Source of the DNA: Lagopus muta
Lineage: Eukaryota; Chordata; Aves; Galliformes; Phasianidae
Assembly: GCF_023343835.1 (NCBI RefSeq)
Contig: NC_064435.1
Span: forward strand, 86,522,788 to 86,586,787
Reading direction: 5' to 3'
DNA length: 64,000 bases
The notes under the pieces were generated by a model. The model was not told the origin of the DNA. It did not search any database and saw nothing but the letters and a program-made list of their open reading frames with translations. This document shows positions 9,176-62,809 of this stretch, piece after piece. The position numbers and the translations under genes are program-made. The first letter of the stretch is position 1; every line of letters begins with the position of its first letter.

Positions 9176-27731
<18,556 letters not shown>

Positions 27732-29348: not shown

Positions 29349-32028
29349 CTAGCCCTTAAACAAAAAACAAAACCAGTAAGCCTATAAGCATGTTCTTAGC
29401 TCAGCTGTGTGACTAGCAGCAATTCATTCCATTACTGCAGCATTTCAAGCTTGGGCAGAAGCACAAAAGGGAAAGCTGAAACTTCCTCTTAGTCATGTTT
29501 CATAGAGGACAGAAGGCTTCCACTGGCACATGCTGGTGCCACTGGCCAGCCTCCTGCAGGATGGGGTGCAGTAGTGCTTTCACTTTTAAAGCACAAGTGG
29601 AAAAAGCAAATTGATATCTAATCTTTTTTGACCATAGAATCAAGCCAGTTTGGAAGGGGGTGAGGTTTCCATCCACAAGCTCAGGCTGCCCAGGATCCCA
29701 TCCAACCTGGCCTTGAACATGTCCGGAGATGGGCAGCCACAGGTTTGAGCAGCCTGTGCCAGTGCCTCACCACAGCAAGCAAATAATTATTTAGTCTAAA
29801 CTTAATCTTTTCTTAGTTTAAAGCCATTCTCCCTTGTCCTACCACTACAATGGGATACCAGACCTATGATCCACACAGAATCTGTTTCTGTGGCTGAGCG
29901 GCAGCGTAGGGCTAGAACTGATGTTAAGTCTGTTTTTGTTCATTTTTTAACATCACTTTTTAACAGAGCAAAGGTACAACTTCCCTCTGCTTTAAGATCT
30001 TACAAAGATCGTAGTGACTTTGGCAGCTCAGGCCATAAGCCTTATAATGGTTAGTTTAGGAAGTGAACACAGCTCTGGACCAAGACACTGTTTGTAACTG
30101 TATAAAAAAGGAGCTAACACGTCATTCCATATTCTCCCCAGCAAGTATTCATTATGCATCCTGCTCTGCTCCCTTGCTACATGTTCTAAAGTAAAGTAAA
30201 CTAAAGCCCTGTAACATACAGAAAAGCATTAAAAATGAAAAAAGAACCCTAAAATTAAACACTAATTTAGGCATATAAGCATGGAGTAGTGCCAACTGCA
30301 TTTTTTTTTTCTCTTTTACTTACCCCAAGATTTGTCCACAAACTGAACTGCAGCTTTTTTAACTGGGTCTTTCTTGTTTGCAATGGAAAAAAATTCATTT
30401 GCTGTAACGAGATGAATATTAATTATGAAGATTAATACAGACAAATGCAGATGCAGATCTAAGGAAAACTGCCTACCGCTTGTGCGGTTGGTGCCGGGGC
30501 CGTAGAGCTGACTGTGTATGAAGTCTTTTGCTGTTTGTTGGTGGAGGCCTGTTAAGTTCTCATCTTTCAAGTGCACAGCAATATAGTTTCCTTTTGACCT
30601 AGTTAGAAATGCAAATCCATGGCAAAGTTACAGAACCCAAAACATTGTGTGCTAGTCAATATTTTGATACTTGAGCTGTCAGTGCTGGTTTGATGATCAG
30701 CCAAGAGCTGAAGCAGCTTGCCCTGACTGGTGGGAGTCACAAACTCCTCTTAGAGGAGGCTAGTGCTACTTTCCCATACGCAATCATTGTGATGAGGGCA
30801 GAAGCACAGTGAAGAAGACTTAAGTCACGCACACTTGTTTCAATTAGAGCAAGAGCAGGGCTAGCATCAAGTGAAAAACAGATCCTGGAGATCCAGCTGC
30901 AGGCTGCCTCCCTCAACCTCAGGCTGGAGGAAACAGCGCTGCAGCACTGAACTGATGCCCCACATCTGCTCCTGCTGTACCTGGTGCCTCCTGCTTTGCC
31001 TTTCTTGACCTGTCCTGGGATGCGGTCTTCACTCTGTTTTGCAGACTCCCCTTCAGGGCGTTTATCTAAGGAAAATTCAACAGAAGAAAAATATCCCAAA
31101 AACGCAATCTAGAACTGTAAGTAAGAGGAACAGAAATGAAGCAACACAAGCTGTGAACGAGCATCCATCTTTAAGTGCAAAAGGCACTTTCCAGCTGCTC
31201 TGATTGATTGGTCAAAACTAGCAGTGCTGCTCTCCAAGGAGGGCTGTTGAAGAGGAGGGCTTAAATCTCAGGGGAGCCCTCCAAAAAGTAACAGTGCTTT
31301 GCTGTTCCTTGCCATCAGTCCCAAATCGATGGGATTCAACACAGGACAAAAAATCAGTGCAATAGAACAGCCGTGCACTGCTGGAAATGGGGGGGTACCA
31401 TCCCACCTTTATTCTCTGCAAACTGAGCTATGGAAATGAAGCTTTCTGCGTACCTGGTGCAGCCGCGGGGCTCGGCTCTTCTGCTCTGCGAGAGAAGGGA
31501 AAAGCACGTTGCAGCCCCAGCCCGGCTTTGCACAGCCACGTGCCCCCGAAAAACCACCAGTGGCCTCCCGCCTTCCATCCTCACCGAGCAAGCGGCGCGG
31601 CGGCCAGCTCCTGCAGGAGGGCTTCGGGCAGCAGCTTCCTTCTCTACGGAGAAACGGTGATGAGGGCGCGGGGCCCGGCCTGCCGGGCTCGCGGCGGGCT
31701 GCGGGGCGACCGCGGTACCTTCTGCTCCGTGAACAGCTCCTGCCGCCGCCGCCGCTTCTCCTTCAGCAGCTCCCGGTGCCTGCGGGGGGGGGGGGGGAGG
31801 AAGGGAGCGGGAGCCGCCGTGAGCGCAGCGCAGGGTGAGAGGGGGAGCGGAAAGGGGAGAGGGGACGCCGTACCTCCGAGCCGCCTCCCCCACCAGCTTC
31901 CTCTTGGCCTCGGCCTCTGCTCTCGCCGTGCCGAAGGACAGCTCCTCGGGGGCTTCGTCATCCTCGGACGAGAGCGGCGCGGCGGCCGGGCCCGCGGGGA
32001 CCGCCGCCTCCTCGTGCCGCCGCACCAT
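29281..32028 (-). CDS. NOL7: NOL7 (nucleolar protein 7), complete, 8 coding exons
   Basis: Nucleolar protein linked to small-subunit rRNA processing (family knowledge). Exons in reading order: 32028-31874, 31779-31719, 31643-31585, 31485-31454, 31065-30981, 30598-30477, 30401-30324, 29348-29281. They join in phase to 219 codons plus TGA; human NOL7 is 257. Matches to human: acidic [20 protein letters not shown], basic [33 protein letters not shown], and the conserved C-terminal block [46 protein letters not shown] and the basic [16 protein letters not shown] tail. The middle (exons 4-5) is poorly conserved and rests on splice phase. Start chosen at 32028: the first ATG in the open frame, giving MVRRHEEA. 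It sits in a CpG island just behind SIRT5 on the same strand. Confidence 0.93.
29349..30323 (-). other. NOL7: NOL7 intron 7 with CR1
   Basis: 975 bp, including the CR1 fragment at 29632-29856. No exon. Confidence 0.85.
29632..29856 (-). mobile_element. CR1 LINE fragment in NOL7 intron
   Basis: Begins CCATAGAATCAAGCCAGTTTG and continues GCTGCCCAGGATCCCATCCA, a reversed CR1 3' end, 5'-truncated near 29856. Sense to NOL7. Confidence 0.87.
30324..30401 (-). CDS. NOL7: NOL7 exon 7
   Basis: Encodes [20 protein letters not shown] to DKSW. Acceptor ctcgttacag, donor GTAAGT. Confidence 0.95.
30477..30598 (-). CDS. NOL7: NOL7 exon 6
   Basis: Encodes [20 protein letters not shown] to [10 protein letters not shown], the best-conserved part of NOL7. 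Acceptor tttctaactag, donor GTAGGC. Confidence 0.96.
30981..31065 (-). CDS. NOL7: NOL7 exon 5, divergent linker
   Basis: Encodes [20 protein letters not shown] to KAGGT, charged and low-complexity. Called from acceptor attttccttag, donor GTACAG and matching phases on both sides; sequence similarity to human is weak. Confidence 0.82.
31066..31453 (-). other. NOL7: NOL7 intron 4
   Basis: 388 bp between exons 4 and 5. Nothing recognised. Confidence 0.75.
31454..31485 (-). CDS. NOL7: NOL7 exon 4, 32-nt Ala/Pro-rich
   Basis: Encodes [10 protein letters not shown]. Very short; supported by acceptor cttctctcgcag, donor GTACGC and by being the only piece seen that restores phase between exons 3 and 5. 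Confidence 0.75.
31585..31643 (-). CDS. NOL7: NOL7 exon 3
   Basis: Encodes [19 protein letters not shown], matching the human KRKLLPDTILEKL block. Acceptor gtttctccgtag, donor GTGAGG. Confidence 0.9.
31719..31779 (-). CDS. NOL7: NOL7 exon 2, basic helix
   Basis: Encodes [20 protein letters not shown], a likely nuclear or nucleolar targeting stretch (inference). The acceptor GCAG follows an unbroken run of 14 C on this strand; donor GTACCG. Confidence 0.94.
31874..32028 (-). CDS. NOL7: NOL7 exon 1
   Basis: Encodes [20 protein letters not shown] and the acidic [14 protein letters not shown] block. Donor GTACGG. The upstream frame is open for a few codons but has no ATG. Confidence 0.9.
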
Positions 32029-32060
32029 GACCACGCTCCTCAACCGGCCTCAGCGCGACC

Positions 32061-32126
32061 CGGAAGCGCTCCGCTAACTTCCGGAACCCGCCCGCCAACT
32101 TCCGGAAACGCTCTGCCGACTTCCGG
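32061..32126. promoter_or_regulatory. Cluster of four ETS/GABP-like sites upstream of NOL7
   Basis: CGGAAG at 32061-32066 and CTTCCGG at 32078-32084, 32099-32105 and 32120-32126. The last three repeat at an exact 21-bp spacing. ETS sites are typical of TATA-less housekeeping promoters. Confidence 0.65.
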
Positions 32127-32214
32127 CCTCGCCCCCTCATCGCCCAGCTGTTCACAACCCACCGCCCCCGGCGCTGGCAGTCAGACGCGGACACGGGAGC
32201 GGCTGGCTGCAGGC

Positions 32215-32220
32215 TTTATT
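32215..32220 (-). terminator. SIRT5 poly(A) signal
   Basis: TTTATT on the plus strand, AATAAA on the SIRT5 strand, only about 45 nt after the SIRT5 stop and about 190 bp before the NOL7 ATG. Confidence 0.75.
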
Positions 32221-32263
32221 GGCGCGATCAGGGCCCGCCGCCTCGCCCCGCCCCCGCCCCGCT

Positions 32264-32339
32264 TCAGGCGATGATCTCGGACTCGTGCCGGGCCAGCGCA
32301 GGCGGCAGCGTGGTCCCGCAGGGGCCCTGGAAGTGGAAC
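32264..32339 (-). CDS. SIRT5: SIRT5 terminal coding exon
   Basis: Encodes [20 protein letters not shown] to EIIA, stop TGA at 32264-32266. Acceptor ctctccttccag. Confidence 0.96.
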
Positions 32340-35300
32340 CTGGAAGGAGAGACCGTGTGAAGGGCGGGGAGCGGGAGGGGAAGAAATGGTGGGGGAGGTT
32401 CGCTTTTCTCTAGGCAGCGCAACCGCTCAGAACAGGACGGTGAAGATGGAGGGGTCAGACTGCAGAGCGGCCTTACCTGAACCTGTCTGTTGCAGGAGTG
32501 GCTTCCATGTTGAATTCCGCCACCGGCACTCCTCTGGAGGACACCTGGGGGGCGAACATGGCAGCAGGGTACACCACGGAGGAGGTTCCCACCTGCAAAG
32601 CCAGCAGCATAGGGTAAAGCAAATAAAGACCTGACAGAAAGGAAAATACATCCAGAGCTGTGTTTTGTGTCACTGTGGAGGGAGGTGGCATGCATCAGAA
32701 TTTTGTCTGCTGCAATCTAAAGAAGCCTGTTTGCATTTCTGGGACTTTTTTGTTTTGTTTACATTTTTGTGGTTATAAACTACAAAAGACAGGAAAAGAA
32801 GACAAAACATCCAATTGTATTGGTCAGTGATGCGGAATGCACATGGCAAGGAAATAAATAACCCCACAGAAGCAGCTCCTGACGATGCCGACCTGCCATC
32901 CCACAAAGCAACACAAACGTCCTCACCACCAAGCAGAGGTCGCATAGTTCGAGTTCCTTCTCCACCGCTGTGAGAATATCTGGATCCAGGGCTTCACCAA
33001 ACCACACAACGTGGGGACGAAGAAGGCCGTGACAGCCATCTTCCTCGCACCTATTGAAAAATTGCAGAGGGACAACGTTGTATTTCTGACATGAACACCT
33101 CCACCTGCACAGTGGCACAGCAGCTCTCATTTAGGATTGGACACGGCTTCCTCCCTTCTTTCACTGCTCACATTCACAGCACTCCTCCTGCTCTCCCGAG
33201 CACAGGTTGTTGAACAGTCATTCAATTCAGAATCTTAACTGCTGTGTCTTAACTCCTGAAATGCATCCAAGAACTTGATACGTGCTATGATTTTCACTGA
33301 CTTCAACAGACACAGTCTAGCAGGTTTTTAAGAAGAAAGTGGCCTGGGCAGAAGCATCACAGCAGCCCCACAGCAGCCTCGTTTCCTTAGGAACAAGATA
33401 AAAAAAGCAGTAGCTCCTTGCACCTGCAGCTAGCCAAGCTAAAGCTTTAGCCACTACAAAAAGCACCCTGGCTTATTTAGAGCCTGTAGGAAACTTCTCC
33501 ATGGCTGCACACCAGCACCCTATCACATGCTGACCACCAGCAGAAAAGCAGAGCAGTAGAAAAGTAACAGCTTACTGTGCAGTAGTTTCGCAGTGCAATT
33601 CTACTGCTCACTACCAAACCCACAAACTTTAGCATGTTTTGAGTTTGAAGCTCAAGTACACAAACATGCAGTTCCTTTAGCACTGTGATAAACTTGTACA
33701 CACTCCTACTGTCTGGTGCCTCCCAAGCACTAAGTTTAGATATGAACTCTGTTCCCAGGTGTTCTACTCCCATTGAATGTGTATGTGTCCTTCCAAAACT
33801 ATAGGAACAGTCATGAAGGAATTGAGATGGATGAAATTCTAAAAAGCTAGCAGCAAAAAAAAAAAAAAGTGGATACATACTGAGGAAGTTCTTCAACTGG
33901 AATTGTGGCATCTTCTGTTTCTGGATCTGGAGCCCTGAATTTACAAAATTGAAATACATATTCAAACATACAGATGAAGTGCATTTTACAGATGGCCAAA
34001 AACTTCGTATTTTTTCCAGTCAAGAATCTTTGCAACTTCAGTCAACTCTACTAAAGCCCCCCCCTTAGCACACAGAGGGCAGGCAGGCTTCTATACAGCA
34101 TTATCCCAGAGCTAAGCAACAGCAATTAGCTTGTCAAAGTCCAACAAAGACACAATGAGTATTTACAAAGCTATCTAAAGATCTGGGATTAAAACTTTTA
34201 AGTATAAGCAGGTGCCTGTCCTCCCCTCCTTTTCTTTTTTTCCTTCCTTCAACAATGCAAGGGAAAAAAAAGAAAGATAACTAAAATGAGGCCAAAGGGC
34301 TCTTCTGCAACTTGAAAAGAAATCCTGAAAACTGATTTTCCTGCATTTCAAGACTTGCAATGAGAGTCTCACTGATGAGTTGAAGCACAAGAGCAACGTG
34401 GTGCTCATGAGATTCAGAACAGGAGAACCCAAGACCTGAATATTATTAAAGAAAAATGAAGTGCTTGGCTAGAACTGCTCTGTGCTCCTGTAACAGCTCC
34501 TGTCCTACTGAAGAGCAGACTGAGCAGAACATATTGGGAGTTTGCAAGGAGATGGATTTACCCTTTCCCAGCCAACGCTGGGCAGATCGGACTCTTGTAA
34601 TTCGCAGTCACATTTCCACAGTTGGTGCATCGAGTTTTAAATAAGCTTCCTGAAAAGCAGAAAGAGGAAACGTTATGGATCAAGTAATTGCTCCAGGGCA
34701 TGACTGTACAAGCAAATGGTTATGTTTATAAAGACAGCTTTTATTTGACTTGTGGGTTGACAGCTACAAATTGGGTATTGAAACCTGCCATCATTACGGT
34801 TGAGATGTTATTTACAGAGTGCATCCACACATTTGTTTAGCAACCAAACACAGCCAGGGTCAGAGTAAAGCACAGCACGAGCAGAGCCAGAAGCACCCTT
34901 TTACCTAAGCGGCCACAGAGAACAGCAGCAGCTGTGCCTTTGAGCTACGCTTTACGACCTTCTGCCATGAACTATAGGGAATGGGAGAGAAGCACCACAG
35001 AGCATGGAAGAGAAGTGGAAGCATCACGTGTTTCTAGATCCTCCTTCCTCCTGCACTGAGGGGCTGCCACTGCTGGGGCCATGAAGGAAAGGCCAGGACA
35101 TGACAAATGGAAAGCACCAGGCTGGAAAGACCTCTCTTGCCCACATGCCTTTTGTTTGTGGCAGTAGCAGTGTGATGCTGTCACATTGCTGAAACCCTGA
35201 ATTCCACGCATTCAAGTGGCAAAACTGAGCAGGTGGGAATGAAGAACCAACTCCTATGCGCTGTTCACTATGTGCTGTTCAGATGACACATAAAAGGAGG

Positions 35301-38300
35301 CTATGAAGTGTCCAAAACATCTTCCAAAAGGGAACAGGGTGACACTGTAAATAACCTCCTGTGAGTGATTATCACTTTTAAGACAAGTTCCATTTGTTCT
35401 GCCTATCGTCCTGCTCTCTCCTCTCCCCAGTTTTGCTGCCCAGCAGCAGACAGGGAAGCAGAACCTTACCATGAATCTCCAGGAGGTGCTTTGTGCCCGC
35501 CTTCCTGTGCAGTTCATCGATATTCTGGGTGATGACCACCACGCTCCTGCCTTGCTTTCTCAGTCGCTTTTCACACTCAGCAATGGCGATATGAGCAGCG
35601 TTGGGATGTTTGCTCAGCATGACCTCGCGGCGGTAATGATAGAATTCCCACACGCGAGAAGGGTTGCGTGCAAACGCCCCGGGAGTGGCCAACTCCTGAA
35701 AGAGATGCAACGCTTCATTCTGCTGATGGAAGTGAAAGAGAACCCCTTTTTCAGGTGAGGGCCAACAGCACACTGCCAGTCTGACAACAGGATAACCAGA
35801 AGTAGATTATTACAGCCAGATGCAGCTGACAGGAACACAGCTCAGTAGCCCATCTTTTATGAGGATGACAACTCAAAATAGCTTGTGGAATGAAGAGATA
35901 GCTTGAAACCAGTAGAAGTTCAGCGCAGTACAAAGGAAGATGAGATGTTTCAATGCACGCAATTTTTACCATTCAGGACTCATTTACAGAGCAGCCATAA
36001 AACTCAGCAGTGTGTGGATTTTCCCTTCGCTAGCAATTTCTTATCTGACTTAGTTTAACTGTAATGCTAACCAAATTACAGTCCCTGTCAAAACCAAAGC
36101 CTAACGTCACCTTTATACACCATCCTCAAGAACAACAAAAACAAAGAGAGCAGACAGGGCTGCAGTGTTTGGGTAACAGTTACTGATGGTGACCTTGAAA
36201 TGTGCAGTACCAGAGTCTCGAGGCACCTGCACTACAGTATTTTATTGCTCGCTACTGCACCACTGTACCTCAGAAATCAGGATTAAAAGAAAACCAGGTT
36301 CTATCTTTGCAACAGTCCTTTATTATTTTTGTAACATTTTCCTAAGAGTTTAAACCAGGAAAGGCCTCAGGAGATACAAACACAGTGAGGGTGTCCAAAG
36401 AGGAGCGAGCAGTTGGGTGACCAGGCAGCAGAGCGGCACAGCAGAAAGACAGAGCTGTCTGCATACACATCAGCTTTCTGAAGGAGCTGATCAACCCAAC
36501 AACAGAAAACTCTCACACACATCCCTGGCTGACAGAAGAGCACAGCAGTGCCATGGTACACACCTGTGCTTGCCACTTTCTCCAAAAGCCTCCGGCCCCT
36601 CTGAAGGTAGGAACGCCGCTCTCGGCACTCACACCGGCTCCGGTAATGATGGCGATATGCTTTGCTTTGGCAAACACTTCTCGGAAATCAGCCATGTCTG
36701 TTTGTGGGATGAAAAGATGAGCACTTTCATGATGAAAGGTGAACTGCTCAAACAGTTGCATTTTTACATAAGATTCCATACTATGCTGCCAAACGCACAT
36801 GCAGAAAGGGCATTCGCATGCGCCCAGAACTGGCTTCCCTGGCTTCCACATACACCCACCATGACTTCTATTTCAGAGTACTTTGTTTTTTTTTTCCCCT
36901 CCTGTTTCTGTATGTTGGAATTTGAAGGGCAGTTCTTGGAGACTTTCAAAAATAACGTATGAGCAAACCCAGTAGGACAACAAATATTCAACTATGGGTA
37001 TATGCAGTATTTTAAAGACAAGATGCCTTAAACTAAAACCGTAGTTAGATGCTACCATAATAGCAATGCCACCACCATTCAGGAATAGGTTGCTTCCTAC
37101 CTGTAAGAATCAAAACGAGATTATAAAGGAAACTCTTTACCTCAGATATTAATTTTAAAGCAACATATTTTAGAATCACAGAATGGCAGAGGTAAGAAGG
37201 GACTTCTATAGAACATCAGGTCTAAGGCTCCTCAAAGCAGGGGAAAACTCGAGGGTTCCCAAGCCTGTGTCTAGGCAGTTTTTGGAGATCTCCAAAGAGG
37301 AGATCCCACAGCCCCTGGGCAGCAAGTGCCAGTACGCCATCACTTGCACAGCACAGAATTGCTGCTTTGTCAGCGCTCACTGACTCATCATGGTGCTGGG
37401 CACCTCTGAAAAAAGCCCAGCTGTGATTTATCACTCCAAACCAGAGGCATATATACACTAGTAAGAAACCCTTGAGCCTCCTCTCCTGCAGGCTGCACAG
37501 CCCCAATCCCTCTCAGCCCCTCCTTATACATCAATCACTCCCAGCTCCTTATCACTTCTGTGACCAGACCCACCCCAGCAGGTCCTGCAGTGGGGAGCCT
37601 GAAGCTGAACCCAAGTCCCCAGGCGTGCATCACCAGCGCTGGGCAGAGGGAAGGACCACAACCACCTCCCTCCACCTGCTGGAAGCGCTCTGCCTGGTGC
37701 AGCCCAGGGGGCCGTTGGCCCTCTTCAGCAGGAGGGCCCATCCCTGGCTCCTGGTTACCCAGCTGTCCACCAGAAGAATGCTCAGGGCTTTTCCTGCAGA
37801 GCTGCTTTGCGGCAGGTCGGCCCCAGTGTGCCCTGGTGCCAGGGGTTATTTCAAGTTAAGGCACATCCTCAGGCTTAAAAATAAATATGCACATGTATGT
37901 CTGCTAGACTAAATAAGGGTTCATCTTACTTAATATGCAGCTCCCAAACTACCACAAATGCTTGAGGTCCCCCGTAATTCTTGCACAAACAAATCAGGAT
38001 GAGTGTTATTGCTCCTTAGAAGCATGAAGAGGAAACGCAGCTAACTAGCTGTGTAAATTATCTGCATAATCTGCATAAATTGTAAGTACTAAAACCACGT
38101 CGGCAGGAAACCACAGCGACAGCAGCTACTTTCGGAACCACACAGTGAAGAGGCACAGCAGATACGTTTTAACAGCTAACAGACAAGTCAGCGTCACGCT
38201 CTTCCAATCGTTATGAACAACACTGGGGATTTCGCCCATTCCACGAACTACTCTGAGTTTCCAACCCAGCTCAACCACCGCCCGGCAGACTAAAGCGAAC

Positions 38301-38933: not shown

Positions 38934-39200
38934 CATAGAATCATAGAATGGCCTGGGTTGAAATGTTCATCCAGTTCCAACCCCCTGCTGTGTGCAGGGT
39001 CACCAACCAGCAGACCAGGCTGCCCAGAGCCACATCCAGCCTGGCCTTGAATGCCTCCAGGGATGGGGCATCCATAACCTCCTTGGGCAACCTGTTCCAG
39101 TGCTTCACCACCCTGTGTGAAAAAATTCCTCCTGCTATCTAACCTAAATCTCCCATCTCAGTTTAAAACCCCTTGTCCTATCACTATCCAACCCACACAA
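38934..39200 (-). mobile_element. CR1 LINE fragment upstream of SIRT5
   Basis: Begins CATAGAATCATAGAATGGCC, a reversed CR1 3' end with two octamers, followed by GAGCCACATCCAGCCTGGCC. The 5' limit is approximate. Confidence 0.9.
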
Positions 39201-42200
39201 CGTCCATGCACAAACAGCACTCAGACCCCTCACAGCTCCCACAGTTTTGTGAGGAAAGCTTGTTTTCTGTAGAACAAGCTCACTCACTGCTTTCACAGGG
39301 CCTCACCCTCCTCCCTGCCCTTCCTCAGCAACTTTAAACCCCTTCTTGCTCAGTTTGAGATTTCACACTTTTCAAATATTTCAGTTTTTCTTTTCCATGG
39401 GAATTCTAAGAGATGAAGAGTTTCCTTTTGTAGGGGAGTATTGGAAAGGCTGAGGGGCACTGAGCCCAGGCTGCCTGTGCTTCTGCCTGCAGCACACCAG
39501 GTGTGCCAGTTCCAGAGGGCTCTGGTTGAACCTTCATAAAGGGTTTTGGAAAAAAACCAATAGCTAACACACAGAGAACACAAGGCAAGGGCCATTGGAC
39601 CAACTTAGCACTGCAGCCATCCTGATAATTTAAGCGATATCATTCCAGGAGGTGAGCTCCTGCACAATGCATGCCAGCAGCTCAGATTAGAAGCAGCCAC
39701 TCATTAGTCAGCATTACAGTTGGGGCTGGTTTGCTTTTTAATATCAGTCTCATTGTGGGTCATAGATCCTGCTTCTTGGGTTGTTTCTTTTAAATGCTGG
39801 TTAAGACAATATTTAGGAAAGAGGAATGCCAGCTTGCAACTGAACAGTCACCACTGCCCTTTCTACTGGTTAAAAAGCTCAGGACAGCCACTGCTGCTCT
39901 GGCACTACCAACAGAAAGCCTACTGCTCACTGTGTGTAGCAGAGTTAGAGGTGCACACCAATGCCTGCAGTTCCACATTACTTCACTGCACTCATGACAT
40001 ACGTTGCTTCCAACACTTACCTGCAACAAGATGTGTTAATATGCTGAGTTTGCAAAAGAAAACATGGGATAGCATGGGTTAAGTCAAATGTTCATGCCAA
40101 CAGCTTGGCTTCTGTAGGTTTCTCTGCCATTCATAGACTGTACACTGCAGGAAGCACTCGAGTGTTTCTGAACCAACCATGTGTTCTGTATTCCTAAGGG
40201 TAGCTGATGCTAACCTGGTACAAGTTCTGTAAGAAAAGGGCCATATTAACTTCCAAAACTGTTGTCCTCGTCCACTACAAACAACTTATGCAAATGTTCA
40301 TGCACACACATATATATTTTCAAAAGCTTTATAAAAAGGTTAAAGTGACATCTAAAATTAACTTCAAGATACTTGACAGTGTTTTAGGATCATCTGTGCC
40401 TGATAAAATACTTCTGTGTAAACAAGTTTTTCCATTATGGTAAATTTTTTTCCAGCAACAATCGTCGTTAATGCACCAAAAGCAACTCCGAGTGGACTCC
40501 GAAAGCATGAGAAAGATGTCTTCTGCAAAGCCCTTCATTCCACCAGAATCAACCAACACAAGCACATCGGTATCCTGTTTCAGTGCTGGCAAAAGCCACA
40601 TCAAGGGCCAGCACAACGCTCTGCGCCTGCCCCCTTGGCACAGCACCTCCCAGCTGCCTGGATGAGGGTTGTACGTCTTTAGCAGTGCATCTGCCTTCCA
40701 GGAACTTGCCCGCTCTCCCCTGTCCACAAGCTCTCGGTGCCCGTGTCGTTCTCTGGCAGGAGTCACCCAGCTCTGCTCCCCTAAGAAGGGAAGGGAGGGC
40801 AGCAGATGAGGAAGGTGTATCCACACAGGCTGCGCTCATCTTATGCCACAGGAATCAGCCAGTGTTCATACAGGTTAACATCATCAGGTGCTCCACTCCC
40901 ATTGCAGTCCTTCAGCATTCTTACAAAGTATTTTGCATCTGAGCACCATCAGCTAGTAATGGCATTAAGCTTATTATGTGACCATGGAACCTAAATGTAT
41001 CAAATATAAGCAAAACGATGTCTTTAAAATCCCAAGTCAACAGTCTGTATTCTAACACACAATAGGTCTGTACCAATTAAATACAGGATTGGCAGTACAT
41101 AAATTACAGTTCTTTACAGCAAATAGTAACACACTAGAGTCCGCTTACTGTACACAACAATCAGAGAAAGAACAGCAGCTTGTCAGTAAGGTCCCAGGTA
41201 TCGCAGTCACTCACTTGCTCAGAACAAAGAACAGGTACAGCAGGCCACTCACGTCACTCATTTTTCACCATGTTACTTTACAAACATCCAAACACTTGTA
41301 CAGGCATCTACAGTATCTACACGCGGAACAACCTTCGTAGGAATTCATGAGCACCAGACACAAATCCCTCCATCATTCCCCTTATTAACATAAACTTTAC
41401 AGATTAAAATTACTTTCGCAGGTTCTATTTCATCTTGATAATAACCAGCAAGTAACAAGTGCAAAGTCTGCAGTCACAATCCATCTACTGTGTCTCGTTT
41501 CCCCACTCCCCCCCCACACCCCAAAACCCCCCCAGACAAACCCCAAAGCGTTGTCCTATCACATCCTTGCAGTAATACTGTTTCTGCAGTCAAACTGCCC
41601 GGCTGGTTTATGGGAACACACAAAATACCAGACTAACAGCTTCGGGCATTGTCAGTCACCTCAGTACAATGCCAGTTCATCAGCACAGTGGCAGGCCTCT
41701 AGGAAGACAAGAAATATGAAGCAGTTGGATATTTCAGTGTGCTTAAACACAGAACATAAGGCTGCTTGGTGCCCCGTGACTGAAAGGAAAATGGCACCAC
41801 GTTATCAGTTAAAACATTTACAATAGAAAGATAAAAACAGCAAAATGTGTCAGTCTGAAACGAGTTCTTTGGTAATGAAAAACAGCAAACCGTAGTCTTT
41901 TTCCAAACACGGATTTACAGCCTGCTTGTCCACAATAAAATATTTCTACTTGTTTAAAATATATCTCCCATGTTGGTGCATAACAAATAGTCCAGTACCT
42001 CAATTATCTACACATCAGCTTTAACTGTATTTTAGTGTGCAGCCGTATCTGCCCACTGGCAGACAAACTATAGATACACATTCATATATATATAATATAT
42101 ATTATTTATAAAAAAAATTAGAGAAGTCAAGGACCCTAGGGAATACGCATTCTGTATGGACAGATTTAAATGTACAATACCTTCCAAAGTTTTCCACACA

Positions 42201-42235
42201 CTGATATGTGTAGTAAGTGCAAAAAATACCGCGGT
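39201..42235 (-). other. SIRT5-KIF13A spacer and probable KIF13A 3' untranslated region
   Basis: No coding exon seen. The part next to 42235 should be KIF13A 3' UTR, but I found no canonical AATAAA on the minus strand. Variants exist (ATTAAA near 39737, TATAAA near 40330), so the 3' end is undetermined. A C-rich block lies at 41501-41544 and an AT microsatellite at 42084-42110. Confidence 0.6.
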
Positions 42236-42519
42236 TCAGTTAATCCACGATTTCCTGTTTTCTTGTTTCCTAGAAAAAGCAGAGGCCGCCGCATCTCCTG
42301 AATGACAGAGGCCTTCTCCTGCTTTAGGAGTGGATGGAGAGCCCTGAAGTACAGAACTCCTCCGTTTCTCTGAAGTGGAAGATGCCTGAGACCGCCAAGT
42401 GCTGCTGCATTTCCTCGTGGATGCTGGTGCTTTACTGAGGCGCCCGGGGCGAACAAACACCCCGTGCCGTGGTTTGCAGTGGAAGTACTCTCTGCCTTTG
42501 ACAGTCCCGTCGTGTTTCC
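42236..42519 (-). CDS. KIF13A: KIF13A last coding exon, second half of CAP-Gly and tail
   Basis: Encodes [31 protein letters not shown], a Ser-rich stretch and the end QENRKSWIN, stop at 42236-42238. Acceptor tttcattgaag. The CAP-Gly signature GKNDG reads GKHDG here. Confidence 0.92.
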
Positions 42520-45500
42520 CTTCAATGAAAATAAAGGCACAGAATTAATTGTTGGGATGTTCACACGTTCATTAGACGTGTAATTCTGGTACTGAAGTGC
42601 AAATCTCTCTGACTATCTGTGAAAGAATCAAGATCTGTAGCTGTGAGTGCTGAAATCAGATGCCAAGCACAAGGATGAGCACAACCTGGAAAGGAAGCCT
42701 TGAACTGTGACCAAAGAAAGATGTCCTAAAATATTATTCCAATAACAAACAGTTTAAAAAGCCACACGTCTGCTCTTTTTCAAAACAAATAACTCTCAAT
42801 TACTTATGAAGTTTAGTACTTACCTGTCAAAGAAATTTGTAGTATAAGTGCTAGTATCTATTAAGCTGCTAAAAAAGCCATCTTTTCAAAATACCTGAAG
42901 CCATTCTCTGTAAGAATCCCTTAGCATTTACAGAACACAGGCTCTTTTTCAGACCTCGCCAAACAGAAGTCAAAGAAAAGCTGTGCACTGTAATTAAGTC
43001 TTTACCTAGTAGAAAAATAAGTCTCTCTGAAAGCTACAGGCAGCAAACTCATCTGACAAGTGAAGTCCATGGCTAGCACTGCCCATGAACCTGGAAGTTG
43101 AAATATATCTGCTGATTTTAGGCTTTGCTTGTTTTGGTTTTTTTTTTTTTACCTATAAACAGACGGGTACCAATGGGAACTACTAGGACATGCAAAGCAT
43201 TATTTTGCATTAAGTAAAAGAACAGGGCTTTGAGACAGCTAACGATCTTTATCAAAGCATCTCTATAAACAGAAAGCCTAGAATGCTGCGTTTCAGATGT
43301 CAAGTGATTACAAAATTGCAAGTTTTTCCCCAAGGGTGAACAGAGTATGGTTATAATGCAACTTTAAACAGATCATAGTAACAGCACAGATAATCCAGAG
43401 CATAGTCAGCCTTACCTAACTGAACGTTTAGTTCAACTCCAACCCAGATGCCAGCTGAAAAATCCACCGTTCCAACATATCTCACTGTGCCCACCTTATT
43501 GCTTCCAACACAGACTTGCTCACCCACTGCCACCCAGCTAGGCAAGACATGGGTTTGATCTGCAGAAGCACCGTCTTCACAGTCAGACCCATCCAAGTGG
43601 TCCTTCCCAGTAAAATCATCTATGGAGATATCAGGATAAGTCTCACAGTCTGAAGTCTCTTTTACTACCAAAGGCCTTCCCGCAGCATTTGCAAGCTGAC
43701 TGCCTGCTGTTGCAGAGCCCAGCTGGGTCCCACACGTGTCCTGCTCCTTGCCAGTTCCTGGGGATAACTCCGAGGTGCTCACTCCATTGGAGGACGCAAC
43801 AGAACAGGGCTGTGGAGATGCTGAGTGGTCAAAGTCTTTTCCATCTTCGACACCCATGAACTCTGTAAATGAGTGATCTTCAACAATCTCCATTGTGTGC
43901 TCAACGGTAGCTTCACGTGCAGAAAATTCAACTGGATGACAAGCATTTCTGCCATCTGAGGAGCTTAGAGCTGAAAGTGATCCAACTCTGGGTAACTGCT
44001 GAGAGCCTGTGTCAGCGGCACTGAGGGACAGTGGAACTCGTTCTGTTAAGGCACTGTTTTCTTTGAGTGGTAACACAGGTAACTTTTCTCTCGCTAACTC
44101 CTTTTCTGCCTCACAAGATTCCTTGTTCAAGGATCTTGTATCATGTGCAAGGGATGATCCTGAAGGGTCATTAGAGTCCAGTTCCTTTGTGTGACAGGCT
44201 AGCTGGTCTGTGCTATCACTAGAGGGAATAAGCATGTCAGACAGAGTAGCATTAGAGGCACTGTGGGAAAAATAGCCACTAGTGATACTGCTAGTGGTGG
44301 GGCTGCGGGATACCTCTTTCTCAAGAGCACGTGAACTCATGAAGTCTGATTTAGAAGAAAACCACTCCCTGTTTTCCAGGCTAGCATTGTAAACACTGAA
44401 GTCAGCAAATTCCTCTGGTACGTAAGGTCGGAAAGTTTTAAAACTTTGTGGGCTTATCAGTTTCTTATGAATGGCCTCCAACTCACTGTCCTCCTCCTCA
44501 GAATCCTGCAAAAGAGAGTCAAGTGGCATTAGCAGCCTACAACAGTTCTCAAGAAAATTAACTGCACTTGATTTTTCTCTTCTGAATATGAAGAAACGTG
44601 CATTTAGTATTCCTCAGCTGAAGAAGAGAAGCTCCCTCTGACAAGAACTGTTGGCAACGTAACCCTATCCACATTATTTTGTAAAAATTGAATGGCTCAG
44701 ATAAAGATTCCATCCAAATAGTCCAGAAAATATAAAGCAATATAGTTGGGCATAAGAAAAGTTTGCATTAAAAAGTTAGGTATTCTCATATTTTCATCAC
44801 ATTCTGCTTTTGAAAGCCACGTATTACAAAACAATTCTGCTCATTATTTGGGCTTATTAAACCTACTGAAGATATCTGATAGAACCACTTGACTATCTAA
44901 CAAAATGGATACACAGCAACAGAGAAGGGCTGAAAGGGGCTCCGCTGCAATGCTGATTATTAATCATTCTGCACAATAGGATTTTCTATTCATCTCACAC
45001 CACTAAGGCAAAATAGTGTTGCTTACTCCTAGCTATCACACTTGAACACATTCACAATGCTTGAAAACAAAGGCAAAAAAAAAAATCAAGGAAGCATTTA
45101 CGTGCATTCATGTACTTGTTTGGAGGGAAATACATGACTCCAGTTAACCTGACAGAATTTGGAAGCAGCTCCCCCAGTTTCACAATGGGAAAGAGCAATG
45201 ATATGTGGTGAAAAGTCCAAATGTGGCTTTCACAGAATGCATAGGAAGCTGAGAACAAGGGGTTTGAGGACGTCAGTTTGTCAGGATGCATCTGAGCAAC
45301 ACCCCAGCAACACGGCCATGCAGCTCTCCTGAGGATGAAATACAGTAGGCATGACTCCACATCCAGGCTTTTCAAACACTTCATTTCTTCATTTAAAGAC
45401 ATGTGTTTGTATGCATGTGTATGAACACATGTATATCTCATGTGTGCACACATAGATACACACATGCATGTATTAAATGATTCATTTATGATAAAGTCCC

Positions 45501-48500
45501 AAGAGTATAATATTAAAAAAAAAACCCAACCCAAAAAGCCTGTTGAAATATATAAAAGTTTAGAAGAACTTAAGTGCCTATTATTTCTTTATGTTCAATA
45601 TGTATTTCAAATACTAATCAGTGCAAGTCTCAAAGACTGATCCTGCATGATAACCAAAGCAGTTTCACACTTTCTCCTCTTCCATGATTCATGGCAGGTT
45701 TCTGAAACACAATACTTAACCAGATGATCAAAGCACTGAGAACCAACATGTTTAAAGACAAAAATACTTAAGAGAAATTTTGCTGTATTTCATAATAGCC
45801 AGGACAAAAAGTTTCAGCATGATTCATCTTAATGACATTCTCTTGACCTTTACAATATTATACTTTCTATCAGCTTTCTTTTCTACCTCAAGTCACTTAA
45901 TCCCCTGCTGAAGCTACCTCTAACACAGTAATAGATAGAATATATATCAAATGTCTCTACTTACATAGGCCCATCATTCCTAGAAATTTCAGATCTTACC
46001 TTTTACCACTTAAGGCATTTTTGCCCATCTGTGATGATCTAATACAAGCAAGACAAGGCATGCAGGTGAAGACAATACCTCTTCACTAGACTGTTTTAAC
46101 CAACTGGACAAACCCCACTGGCTTTCAGACTTAAGGAAGACATGACCTCTGGATATCAGCCTCATTTTGGGTACACAATTAAAAACAGCATGAAATTAGC
46201 ATGTGATTTAGCAATTATCTTAGGATTACTGCCTAAAGTTCTTTCTGCTTACATCAGGACTACAACAAGTGCTTCAAATTCACTTGCTGATCTCATCTAC
46301 ACTTCTCAAAGTTTTATCAAAGGGAAGAAACTGAATCACGCCCCTCTCTATCTTTAATACAATACTGTATTCTGTACTGATTGCATCTTCTCAGTGCCCC
46401 ACTAAACGCCCCACTGAGTGTAACAAGTATTCTTAATACACCTTAAATTAAACAAATGTTTAAAATATTTGACAGATGAGGACAGAAAGTCAGACTCCTA
46501 CAGAAACTGATCACATGCAGGGAAAGAACTCTTGCTACCATATTCTTCTAGTAAATCTTCTACCCTCCCTTCAATTTTCACTTCCAGGTCTTACAGTACT
46601 TATATTTTGCAGCCTGAAAAATCAGAACTCAGAAAATTGTCACCTGCTGTAACAGAAAACATACCTAGATACTTACACACTGCCTGTCATTGCTGAACCC
46701 GAACTCTGAACACTGCAGACATGTCTGTATGACATCTCTCTTCTGCTTAAACAGCCTTGTATAACAAAGCCTCTAATATATAGGCAAATAGATTCGTTCA
46801 GCTTGCTTATGTCAGAGTGTTCACAGCATTGTTTATGATGGAAGGCATCTTAAGACCGCTGAGTCCAATCCTCTCACCCAGTCTGGGTCACTAGAGCAAA
46901 CTGTCCAGGGCAGTGTCCATGTGGGTGAATTTTGAGCTTCTCCAAGGATGGAGGCTCCACACTCTGCACAATCCGTTTCAGCATTTGACTGTTCTCACAG
47001 TGAAAAAAGTATTTTCTTATGTTCAAGTGAAATCTCTTATTTCAGTTTGTGCCCACTGCCTCTCCTGCCACTTGTACTACTGAGAATCGTATTATCAAGG
47101 TTGGAAAAGACCTCCAAAATCATCCAGTCCAACCACCCACCTACCACCAATTTTGCCCCACTAAACCATGTCCCTTAGTACGACCTCTAAACATTTCTTG
47201 AACGCTTCCAGTGATGGTGACTTCACCAGCTCCCTGGACAACTTGTTCAATATCTCACCACTCTTGGGAAAGAAATTTTTCCTAACATCCAACCTGAATC
47301 TCCCCTGGTTCTACTTGAGGCCATTATCTGTTGCCCTATCACTAGTTAGTAGGGAGAACAGGCTGACCCCAACCTTGCCACAGCCTGCCTTCAGGAAGCT
47401 GTACAGAATGATAAGGTCACCCCTGAGCCTCCCCTTCTGCAGATTGAACAATCCCAGTTCTCTCAGATGCTCATCATAAGACCTGTGCTCCAGACTCTTC
47501 ACCAACTTCATCGCCCTTCTCTGAGCATGCTTCAGGGCCTTGATGTCTTTCCTGTACTGACGAGAAGGATCTGCCCTTTTTTGACTCCCTCCCATTAAGT
47601 ATTTTTTATGCATTAAGATTCCCTAAGAGCCTTTTCTCCTCCAGGATGTACAGTCCCAGCTCTCAGCCTCTCTCTCCTCAAATGCCAGCTGCACCAAGTG
47701 CAGTAGTGACCTTTGTAGCCATGCAATGAGACTCACGTCAGTAAGCCCTAATCTTCTCTGCACTGCAGAGCCCAGAACTGAACACAGTATTTCAGACACA
47801 GGCTCAGCAGAGCTGAATAGAGAGCAGGAATCTCTTCACTCAGCCTGCTGATGATGCCCAGTGTAACTGTTGGTTTTCTCTGTAGCAAGGATATGTTCAG
47901 ATTGCCACAGGCAATCATGGCTCATGGCCAGCTTGCTGTCCATAAGGATTTCAGTGTCCTTTCAGCCTTGGTCCTGGTGATATTCCTCCCCAGATGTAGT
48001 GTTTCATATTTCTACTTGTTGAACATGACAATATTCCTCTCTGCCAAGTTCTCCAGCTTGTTGAAGACCCTCTGAATGGCAACACAACTTTTTGGTCTAC
48101 CAGTTGCTTCTCCCAGTTTTGCATCACCTGCAAACTTGCTGACTGTGTATTCTGTCCAGGTCATTACTAAAGATGCTGAGCAGCACTGAACACCGGTATT
48201 TCAGACAGAGACTAAGCCACTTGTTACACGCCTCCAAGAAGTTTCTGTGCTTCTGACAGCTCTCTCGGCCCAAGCATGCAGCCAGTTTTTACTTTACCTC
48301 AGCATCCACTTATTCAATCTATACATGCTGGCCTGTCTACGATGATGTTATAGGACATGGTGCCAAAGGCTCTGCGAGCATCAAGTTAAATAACACTACT
48401 CTCCCCTCATCCACTAAGCTAGTCACTGTAGTGTAGAAGGTGACTCATAAATCCATGATGATGACCTGATCACATTCTTGTCCTTCAAGTGTTTAGAAAT

Positions 48501-60500: not shown

Positions 60501-62809
60501 AAGTTCCTAATTTACCTAAACAACTCATCTTTATTTAAATCAGCTCTGATGTATCCAGATTGAGAACAGCAGTATTGATAAAGTTAGGTTTTTTATAATA
60601 CAAAAAAACCTGTTGTGCAATGATCCATGTGTTCTATTGGCCTTCTGTCTGCTAAACTCTGCTTACAATGGAAAACAAAAACATTTCTTGTGAGCACTGA
60701 TGAAGGAATTTTTCAAAAGCAGTGTTCAAAGAAGATATTAGTGTGTTGCCTTTATAAACATGTCTAGGAGCACAATGATGTGCTGGATGTAACAGGGCTT
60801 GTGGATCCTTCTCTACTTCATGTCTAAGAGTTTATACTTACAGACTTACTCCCTAATCAGTCCTTAAATATGGTGCAAACTCCAGTCTCTTGCTGCTTAA
60901 GTGTGTCTGTGTTCTGAGAACAAATATCAATAGCCTTCTCAAAGTTAAAACTAAGTGCTTTCAAAGGGAGAACACTTAGATATTCTAGCACACTCCTCAT
61001 CAAACCATCTGTTTAAACTTCTACAGATACCTCAGATCTGGAACAGCTGGGAGATTCCCCAATGTTCTTATGACCTGTGGATTTGTACATTGAAATGCAC
61101 ACAAAATGTTTCTTTCTTTTCTTCCATTCAAACTAAGCTTGCTCTTTCTCAGCTTCTTTTGTTGAAAAAACAATCCTTGTACTCATATGCTCCCTGATGT
61201 GCACCTTAATTTTAAAATAATTGTGCTTAATTATTCCAACATATGTAATCAGAAGAAAGAACATTCTGCAATCTATACCAGACACTGCCATTGACAGAAC
61301 TCTCTCAGATATTTAAGATGAACTATTCCACCTATCAGTGCATCATTAGAAACTAAATTTTATTATTTTCCCAAGTATCTTAAATCTGTCATTACAGCAT
61401 ACCATTCAAATCAAGGAAGAGGACAGGTATATGTGTTTCCATCCCAGCAGGTGGAATCCTGGAACAAAACAAACTGCTATCAACAAGGAAGACAAACACA
61501 TGTCAAAACTAATTAGGGCAAACCAATCTCTGTGCAAGATTCATTAACTGTAATCAGTGACTAAAGCAGTCAACATTTTGATGGCGAATCTGATTGACTG
61601 TGTTGCACAGACAGTGTTTTGCCTATCTCCACATGTAACTAAACCTAATGCTTTACCAAAACTTAAAGCACACACTTCAGTGCATTTCAATTGTTACAAT
61701 GGTGACAGTTCTAAACATCCCACTGTTTCTTATACAATTAACTGGCTGCAGTCATCTTACACATAAAGGTTAGCAACCTTTCAAACAAATGAATAGGTAA
61801 CTGCTGACAAGACAGTCTTTATAAGAATACATGCATTTCTAGCTACATGACCACAGTATACTTCAGGTGAATAAGGGAAAAAAAAATATCTTAAGTTTGA
61901 GAGGAAAAAATACCATTACATTATTCACCCAGTGAATAAGAGAGTTAGGTATTATCAGGGACATCAGCGTAGACTTGATTAGATTTGTTATTTCTTGTCC
62001 ACACTTTCCCAAATTTAACCTGATGCATTCTTAGTTTTTCCAAGGTTAGTTCCAATGATCTTATTTAAAACACAAATTCAAGTGAAAGATACATTAGTAG
62101 AAATTTGAATCAAATAAGAGAACAATCTTTTACATTAGAATATCTCCCTTCCACACCCTGAACTCAATGAAATCATGTTCTGTAGTTCATTTTAGACACA
62201 TTCCTTTTTTTTTTTTTTTTTTGCTGAAGGGAGTCAACTTTCAGAATTTAAAACAACAAAGAAGTAAAATACTTTTAAATTCAGAGGTGATGTTCAAACC
62301 TTCAGAGCTATCTCAAAACTACTTCATGTAGTAAGTTAACCAGCATCAGAGCTCATGCCAGCTCTGTGTAATTTGTGGCAGTACAGGGAAACGTAGGAAG
62401 CTATAAAACATCCTGAGACTTTGACCCTGTAAGTTCACAATGTTCCTACAGAAGCAGCTCACCACTCCAACGTTTCTTTCTGAACATACCAATTTGCAGG
62501 TGCACCGGGGATCCCACTGCCTGGTGCTGGAACAAACACTGCATTCCTTTCTTCTGTCAGCCCGACCCACTGTTCTACGAGCCGAGCTTCTCGTTCGATA
62601 TCATCCTCAGATTTTTCTACAGAGGAAGAGGTTATATGATGTAAGACACTTCTTGTTGTTGATGAAACAGGGACTAAAGTACTTATGAGTGAGTTTTTAA
62701 GCTTCAAACCTTGTTTATTGCTGATCTTTTGAATCTGCTCATCTAAGTATTCTCTGCGTTTTATCAGTGCATCAGACCATCTTTCTCGTACACAGTTTAA
62801 GTCTTCTTC
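42236..62809 (-). CDS. KIF13A: KIF13A (kinesin-3 motor), C-terminal 899 codons, 14 exons, ends in CAP-Gly
   Basis: Plus-end kinesin-3 that moves mannose-6-phosphate-receptor vesicles and recycling endosomes (family knowledge). Exons in reading order: 62809-62710, 62616-62490, 61458-61403, 60247-60123, 59422-59246, 58275-58183, 57531-57379, 55912-55835, 55301-55254, 54797-54686, 53775-53624, 53107-53003, 44505-43416, 42519-42236. All phases agree. Motor, FHA and coiled-coil parts lie outside the window. The tail matches human KIF13[119 protein letters not shown]. The last two exons then encode a full CAP-Gly domain, present in KIF13B but absent from human KIF13A. KIF13B was rejected because of the KIF13A-specific tail. 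Confidence 0.93.
42520..43415 (-). other. KIF13A: KIF13A intron splitting the CAP-Gly domain
   Basis: 896 bp. It falls after VELNVQLG, splitting the Gly codon of GKHDG. Nothing else recognised. Confidence 0.85.
43416..44505 (-). CDS. KIF13A: KIF13A large tail exon (1090 nt), first half of CAP-Gly
   Basis: Encodes [34 protein letters not shown], the Ser-rich KIF13A tail, [18 protein letters not shown], and finally [19 protein letters not shown] to [11 protein letters not shown]. Acceptor ctcttttgcag, donor GTAAGG. Without splicing, translation runs past the donor to a stop at 43351. Confidence 0.96.
46836..47083 (-). mobile_element. CR1 LINE, 3' part of interrupted element
   Basis: Diverged CR1 3' region in reverse orientation, without clear terminal octamers. 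It stops near 47083 where a second CR1 begins. Confidence 0.75.
47085..47590 (-). mobile_element. CR1 LINE inserted within another CR1
   Basis: Begins GAATCGTATTATCAAGGTTG, a reversed CR1 3' end, and runs into ORF2. The minus strand reads [20 protein letters not shown] and [17 protein letters not shown]1 reverse-transcriptase C-terminal motifs. Truncated dead copy. Confidence 0.87.
47610..48690 (-). mobile_element. CR1 LINE, 5' continuation of interrupted element
   Basis: Diverged CR1 ORF2 sequence continuing further 5' in the element (AGAGCCTTTTCTCCTCCAGG, CCCAGAACTGAACACAGTAT). It is most simply the rest of the copy at 46836-47083; about 100 nt appears lost at the join. Confidence 0.78.
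53003..53107 (-). CDS. KIF13A: KIF13A 105-nt exon
   Basis: Encodes [20 protein letters not shown] to HEEKI: 35 codons, phase 0 at both ends, so it can be skipped without breaking the frame. I recall the human equivalent as alternatively spliced. Acceptor acctttgcag, donor GTAAGT. Confidence 0.93.
53108..53623 (-). other. KIF13A: KIF13A intron
   Basis: 516 bp, with an A run on the plus strand near 53361-53381. Confidence 0.85.
53624..53775 (-). CDS. KIF13A: KIF13A exon, Pro-rich tail segment
   Basis: Encodes [20 protein letters not shown] to RPLLSQE. Acceptor ttttgccccttag, donor GTAATA. Confidence 0.95.
53776..54685 (-). other. KIF13A: KIF13A intron
   Basis: 910 bp; nothing recognised. Confidence 0.85.
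54686..54797 (-). CDS. KIF13A: KIF13A exon
   Basis: Encodes [20 protein letters not shown] to SPRKSKEGS. Acceptor gtttcttag, donor GTGAGA. Confidence 0.95.
54798..55253 (-). other. KIF13A: KIF13A intron with mariner-like fragment
   Basis: 456 bp; holds the transposon fragment at 54990-55090. Confidence 0.85.
54990..55090 (+). mobile_element. Fragment of the mariner-like element, opposite orientation
   Basis: ATGGTCCAAAAGTAATCCC, then CAGAGGCAGATG and TATGGCAGTGGATGTTGAAC. This is the reverse complement of the right end of the element at 11278-11812, about 100 bp, diverged. Confidence 0.5.
55254..55301 (-). CDS. KIF13A: KIF13A 48-nt exon
   Basis: Encodes [16 protein letters not shown]: 16 codons, symmetric phase 0. 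Acceptor gtgtcttgtag, donor GTATGT. Confidence 0.94.
55302..55834 (-). other. KIF13A: KIF13A intron
   Basis: 533 bp; nothing recognised. Confidence 0.85.
55835..55912 (-). CDS. KIF13A: KIF13A exon, basic segment
   Basis: Encodes [20 protein letters not shown] to TPNVHN: 26 codons, symmetric phase 0. Acceptor ctacatag, donor GTAAGA. Confidence 0.95.
55913..57378 (-). other. KIF13A: KIF13A intron with CR1
   Basis: 1.5 kb, mostly the CR1 copy at 55994-57025. Confidence 0.85.
55994..57025 (-). mobile_element. CR1 LINE, about 1 kb, in KIF13A intron
   Basis: Begins AGAATCACGGAATCATTGAG, a reversed CR1 3' end, and extends into ORF2. The minus strand reads [20 protein letters not shown], a CR1 reverse-transcriptase motif. 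Frameshifted and 5'-truncated, sense to KIF13A. The longest single copy here. Confidence 0.9.
57379..57531 (-). CDS. KIF13A: KIF13A exon
   Basis: Encodes [20 protein letters not shown] to LSLERLRQ: 51 codons, phase 0 at both ends. Acceptor ttgcaatttag, donor GTAAGG. Confidence 0.97.
57532..58182 (-). other. KIF13A: KIF13A intron
   Basis: 651 bp; nothing recognised. Confidence 0.85.
58183..58275 (-). CDS. KIF13A: KIF13A exon
   Basis: Encodes [20 protein letters not shown] to IVSNIPK: 31 codons, phase 0. Acceptor tttatttctag, donor GTAAAT. Confidence 0.96.
58276..59245 (-). other. KIF13A: KIF13A intron
   Basis: 970 bp; nothing recognised. Confidence 0.85.
59246..59422 (-). CDS. KIF13A: KIF13A exon
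   Basis: Encodes [20 protein letters not shown] to IAANIYNKQ: 59 codons, phase 0. Acceptor tctctgtgtag, donor GTAATA. Confidence 0.97.
59423..60122 (-). other. KIF13A: KIF13A intron
   Basis: 700 bp; nothing recognised. Confidence 0.85.
60123..60247 (-). CDS. KIF13A: KIF13A exon
   Basis: Encodes [20 protein letters not shown] to PIIKHSDDE. Acceptor gtttcgttag, donor GTAAAT. Confidence 0.96.
60248..61402 (-). other. KIF13A: KIF13A intron
   Basis: 1.2 kb; nothing recognised. Confidence 0.85.
61403..61458 (-). CDS. KIF13A: KIF13A 56-nt exon
   Basis: Encodes [18 protein letters not shown]. Acceptor gttttgttccag, donor GTATGC. Confidence 0.95.
61459..62489 (-). other. KIF13A: KIF13A intron
   Basis: 1.0 kb; a T run at about 62205-62222 on the plus strand. 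Nothing else recognised. Confidence 0.85.
62490..62616 (-). CDS. KIF13A: KIF13A exon
   Basis: Encodes [20 protein letters not shown] to IPGAPAN. Acceptor cttcctctgtag, donor GTATGT. Confidence 0.97.
62710..62809 (-). CDS. KIF13A: KIF13A exon, first seen in window
   Basis: Encodes [20 protein letters not shown] to QKISNKQ. Acceptor ttccatgttag, donor GTTTGA, a weaker site. It starts in phase 0. The next exon is only 93 nt away. Confidence 0.95.

Follow-up and report, generated by a model that had tools for sequence, protein, structure and literature searches.

Drosophila Khc-73, the product of a single gene from before the duplication into KIF13A and KIF13B, has a CAP-Gly domain, a microtubule-binding module. 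It is reported as a KIF13 relative in the available text of PMC8576264 and PMC9081326, and in the former the protein bearing the CAP-Gly is called Khc73. According to the same part of PMC8576264, the relatives detected in species other than mouse, frog, and zebrafish have KIF13A as their best match in reciprocal searches, although the CAP-Gly is conserved in them, with the exception of C. elegans. The kinesin-3 motor KIF13B (GAKIN) has a C-terminal CAP-Gly, and this domain is given as its difference from KIF13A both in the accessible sections of PMC9081326, which describe none of five human KIF13A isoforms with it, and in those of PMC8576264, though there it is placed as N-terminal. The portion of PMC10404244 available states that the KIF13B CAP-Gly contacts the tyrosinated alpha-tubulin end, above all in the weak ADP state of the motor, and that on tyrosinated microtubules it increases both the landing rate and the run length. 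No report of a KIF13A with a CAP-Gly was found in the literature naming both, some of it covered in part; likewise, neither the tail peptides described below, searched as text, nor GKHDG together with CAP-Gly were found in papers. Annotated bird KIF13A entries in databases may already include the domain.

The window analyzed here (the whole stretch of 64,000 nucleotides from Lagopus muta, located on contig C3) is quite probably best explained as holding the 3' end of a bird KIF13A in which the ancestral CAP-Gly was kept, with a contact to tyrosinated tubulin proposed. All window features given below lie on the minus strand. The gene has 13 readable exons in the window, and 12 of 12 introns are GT-AG with fitting phases; from position 62809 to the stop codon, 864 residues were counted instead of the 899-residue tail given in the first-pass annotation. 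Eleven of the coding exons (62809-62710, 62616-62490, 61458-61403, 60247-60123, 59422-59246, 58275-58183, 57531-57379, 55912-55835, 55301-55254, 54797-54686, and 53775-53624) were found by tblastn with an approximate human KIF13A probe, and their splice sites and phases were checked. The gene continues outside the window on the same contig, with the start codon near C3:86675160. The segment 62709-62617 (93 bases) was counted as an intron in the 864-residue tally; it is GT-AG and comprises 31 codons open in the frame of the exon. If it were retained, KIF13A would be longer, with its frame intact. Within 6000 bases past the stop codon, three AATAAA/ATTAAA motifs occur, including a candidate poly(A) signal ATTAAA (39737..39742), about 2.5 kb past the stop and assigned by motif; the other two (36324 and 36246) are among the SIRT5 exons. 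Open frames at 47311-47622 and 16218-16559 resemble the end of a CR1-type LINE reverse transcriptase; the 47314-47622 frame gave no Pfam match.

The CAP-Gly is encoded by the last two coding exons. The large penultimate exon (43416..44505) is an open frame with an AG acceptor and a GT donor, entered in phase 0 and left in phase 1, and includes the tail, a 25-letter motif, and the first CAP-Gly part (VGEQVCVG...ELNVQLG, 43416..43527). It is followed by a GT-AG intron of 896 bases (42520..43415) with the donor TTAG/gtaagg and the acceptor ttgaag. The last coding exon (42236..42519), with an AG acceptor and phase 1, contains the second CAP-Gly part (...FVRPGR, 42440..42519) and ends in the stop TGA; its product reads FVRPGRL...ENRKSWIN. 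The joined exons 44505-43416 and 42519-42236 form one open frame across a phase 1 junction, and the peptides, the coordinates, and the in-phase splice from 43416 to 42519 were found as the first-pass annotation had described them. Retention of this intron would add 20 codons up to a stop (43351-43415), and the shorter protein that might result would lack the second part of the CAP-Gly. The joined 457-residue tail matched Pfam CAP_GLY (PF01302) with 87.4 bits (E 6e-25; the curated cut-off is 26.5 bits) over profile positions 1-64 of 65, that is, over the whole model. The match spans tail residues 327-390, from which the coordinates of the first part were computed. The large exon by itself scored 34.6 bits, and a six-frame genome search recovered both parts (43.1 bits and, for the second one, 43 bits). 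Among 34 PDB sequences matched by the joined tail, the top one was the KIF13B CAP-Gly 2cow (E 1.8e-23). The CAP-Gly signature GKNDG reads GKHDG in L. muta KIF13A, as it does in the PDB match CLIPR-59 1whh, and the W and F positions common with a dynactin-like CAP-Gly (row L001) are kept. By its sequence, the domain is confirmed as intact and complete.

The assignment of the gene to KIF13A was based on the FHA region, the gene body, and the neighbouring genes. We take the PDB entry 5djo, labelled only as a kinesin-like protein, to be KIF13A, in line with its use in a published study. That study, PMC9314371, discusses the KIF13A CC1-FHA dimer in its available part, citing Ren 2016, and uses 5DJO. 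The FHA region of the window gene is identical to 5djo at 128/133 positions and to KIF13B 3fm8 at 78/106; for a gene on contig C2, the corresponding values are 90/127 and 100/106. The NC-CC1-FHA part of the window gene scored 373 bits against 5djo and 172 bits against 3fm8. A four-row FHA tree without an outgroup supported the KIF13A/KIF13B split with 100/100 and did not join the window gene to KIF13B, the outcome named in the first-pass annotation as contrary to its claim; with a very long KIF1A row added, the fork was open and weak, and the KIF13B pair received 82/76. The top PDB match of the motor domain is KIF13B, but this domain cannot discriminate between the paralogues, since none of its 25 matches is labelled KIF13A. 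With approximate human KIF13A and KIF13B probes, the KIF13A probe was closer in all eight body stretches matched by both (e.g., 98.0 vs. 61.7% and 93.2 vs. 41.9%; the narrowest was 63.6 vs. 55.3%). The large tail exon aligned to the KIF13A probe over 228 columns (62.7%), and to the KIF13B probe only in a 27-residue motif (63.0%) and the CAP-Gly. Upstream of KIF13A, beyond its start codon, lie NHLRC1 (C3:86740317-86741477; tblastn E 1e-120) and TPMT (86743424-86752084; eight tblastn pieces, E 4e-11 to 0.004), both detected with approximate probes; this corresponds to the order of human 6p22.3. A genome search with the body gave 10 matches, seven at the window gene and three at C2:4.77 Mb, with no third KIF13 locus among them, and eight of nine FHA matches fell at the window gene and the C2 KIF13B. 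The ninth FHA match (C2:68311185-68311379; 39% identity, one internal stop) is perhaps another, more distant kinesin-3 gene. A scan of the genome contigs for stray vertebrate relatives yielded 19 pattern stretches, none of which was confirmed. Thus the identity proposed in the first-pass annotation held in the four-row FHA tree and the NHLRC1/TPMT neighbours, and it is nearly certain that the gene is KIF13A and has retained a CAP-Gly.

By FHA and gene body, the window gene does not group with KIF13B, which is the C2 gene. Of the 18 matches in the six-frame CAP-Gly genome search, a split pair lies on C2 (4798948-4799061 and 4801774-4801860), and this CAP-Gly is identical to human KIF13B 2cow at 58/67 positions; on these identities, the C2 gene is a KIF13B with its own CAP-Gly, separate from the window gene. 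In both genes, as read from the DNA, a phase-1 intron interrupts the CAP-Gly at the identical codon. The last window exon aligns to the end of the C2 gene, where KIF13B reads AENRKSWAS and KIF13A reads QENRKSWIN (ENRKSW, 6/6). Because the two genes have this intron and the ENRKSW end in common, the CAP-Gly most likely existed before KIF13A and KIF13B separated, and the ancestral domain claimed in the first-pass annotation was most likely kept in this bird. In view of the same codon, phase, and C-terminal end, assignment of the CAP-Gly exon to a neighbouring gene was rejected. Between KIF13A and KIF13B, the CAP-Gly pieces are identical at 23/39 and 14/28 positions (35/65 without the double-counted junction GK), compared with 44/219 in the preceding linker and 16/58 from the domain to the end; judged by these values, the CAP-Gly is held while the flanking tail drifted. 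The window CAP-Gly agrees with KIF13B at 36/67 positions (52-54% to the KIF13B CAP-Gly overall) and with CLIP4 1whk at 35/65. In a CAP-Gly-only tree of 13 rows, it fell into a weak, open group of six rows (76/93) with KIF13B, CLIP4, and the dynactin-like row; as this tree does not place the domain, its descent rests on the intron, the end, and the position. The KIF13B CAP-Gly (L009 3027-5778) is close to the human one (58/67) and that of KIF13A is far from both (36/67 and 35/67), and the two domains may be under different constraint.

Compared with the described systems, the gene is like KIF13B in the place of its C-terminal CAP-Gly, the same-codon phase-1 intron, and the ENRKSW end, and unlike it in the body and FHA, which are those of KIF13A, in the 36/67 identity of the CAP-Gly, and in GKHDG for GKNDG. 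It is like human KIF13A in the nearly identical FHA (5djo) and in tail motifs and flanking genes that agree with approximate human sequences, and unlike it in that human KIF13A is reported without the CAP-Gly. It is an unusual retention of a known domain and not a new kind of system, and the distinction that textbooks draw between KIF13A and KIF13B fails here. Taken as a rule, the CAP-Gly criterion in the available part of PMC8576264 would misname KIF13A in this genome, where the gene has an intact CAP-Gly; we take the fault to lie with the criterion, because the FHA and the neighbours point to KIF13A.

In the proposed mechanism, the CAP-Gly of the ancestral KIF13/Khc-73 kinesin would have been kept at the C-terminus of bird KIF13A, presumably maintained by selection ever since KIF13A and KIF13B arose by duplication, and would have disappeared in the human lineage. 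As in KIF13B, the tail domain would contact the tyrosinated alpha-tubulin end, and bird KIF13A could favour tyrosinated tracks, while this sensor would be missing from human KIF13A. This binding mechanism, drawn by analogy, is somewhat favoured; the second microtubule or EB contact suggested in the first-pass annotation is a conjecture. In CLIP-170, K and N of GKNDG facilitate EEY/F binding, according to the part of PMC9062740 available; as GKNDG is GKHDG in the bird domain, its contact could be weaker or altered. A kinesin that has a sensor of the microtubule state in some vertebrates and lacks it in others offers a natural comparison, and removing or swapping the domain could thus show what the sensor is worth to recycling endosomes.

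Several other readings of the locus were weighed. The replacement of GKNDG, together with an identity of 52-54% to the KIF13B CAP-Gly while the C2 and human KIF13B domains agree at 58/67, could mean that the CAP-Gly is ancestral and intact with its job changed, GKHDG no longer binding tyrosinated tubulin and the domain having another partner or folding back on the motor; given the 87.4 bits against Pfam and the kept W and F positions, this appears rather unlikely, though it deserves some weight. A relic is far less probable: the large exon is indeed open for 20 codons beyond its donor (frame 43351-44613), and the gene could usually end earlier, for example by intron retention with a stop 20 codons beyond the split codon for glycine, but the frame and splice sites are intact, the CAP-Gly is better conserved than the flanking tail, and ENRKSW is unchanged. 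Assigning the gene to KIF13B, or to a third paralogue of the family, with nothing unusual retained, has scarcely any chance of being right. Although the CAP-Gly, a KIF13B mark in the portion of PMC8576264 available, is present and the top PDB matches of this and the motor domain are KIF13B, such an identity was rejected on the FHA identities, the four-row tree, the body probes, the neighbours, the separate KIF13B on C2, and the body and FHA searches, which placed no match at a third locus among the 10 of the body and eight of the nine of the FHA at KIF13A and KIF13B.

The remaining readings concern human KIF13A. From papers on human KIF13A, we infer a loss of the CAP-Gly in the human lineage. 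Of the loss in the mammalian paralogue claimed in the first-pass annotation, the part that agrees with the available text of PMC9081326 and PMC8576264 is the absence in human KIF13A. In the human isoform d, residues 1792-1797 change from VIIPEA to GGTTSR, according to the accessible text of PMC9081326. The bird CAP-Gly exon, if joined to an earlier phase-0 donor, would read GNTTGL, which agrees with GGTTSR at 3/6 positions; it is the sole one of 327 AG-preceded starts at 39000-43600 with this score, and one of eight among 4593 such starts on the minus strand of 100-63000, the match of six residues having been spotted before the counting. This likeness is a hint of the route of loss. A tentative explanation is that birds kept the KIF13A CAP-Gly and mammals lost it by a splice-donor change, the phase-0 donor of isoform d putting the CAP-Gly exon out of frame with a stop after six residues. 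If so, mammalian KIF13A would thereby be without sensitivity to tubulin tyrosination, and birds would have two tyrosination-sensing KIF13 motors. Because the end of isoform d resembles the CAP-Gly exon out of frame, the exon may still exist in human; it is nevertheless improbable that human KIF13A, too, has an unannotated CAP-Gly isoform and that nothing was lost, as PMC9081326 separates KIF13B by the CAP-Gly and, in the part available, describes none of the five human KIF13A isoforms with it. A decayed CAP-Gly start in the end of human isoform a (VIIPEA and eight further residues), suggested by aligning it by eye with the bird exon, was given no weight.

Downstream of KIF13A, SIRT5 exons were found at 32786..36872, three of seven frames matching Pfam SIR2, the ones assigned to SIRT5, and the best PDB matches of one being sirtuin-5. 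Two frames from the next region (30322-31962) had no Pfam match; NOL7-like exons were located there (30322..31962) by tblastn with an approximate human NOL7 probe (E 2.5e-18 and 1.3e-9). Human SIRT5 and NOL7 are on 6p and several megabases from KIF13A, and the gene order directly downstream of KIF13A (30322-36872) in L. muta differs from the human one.
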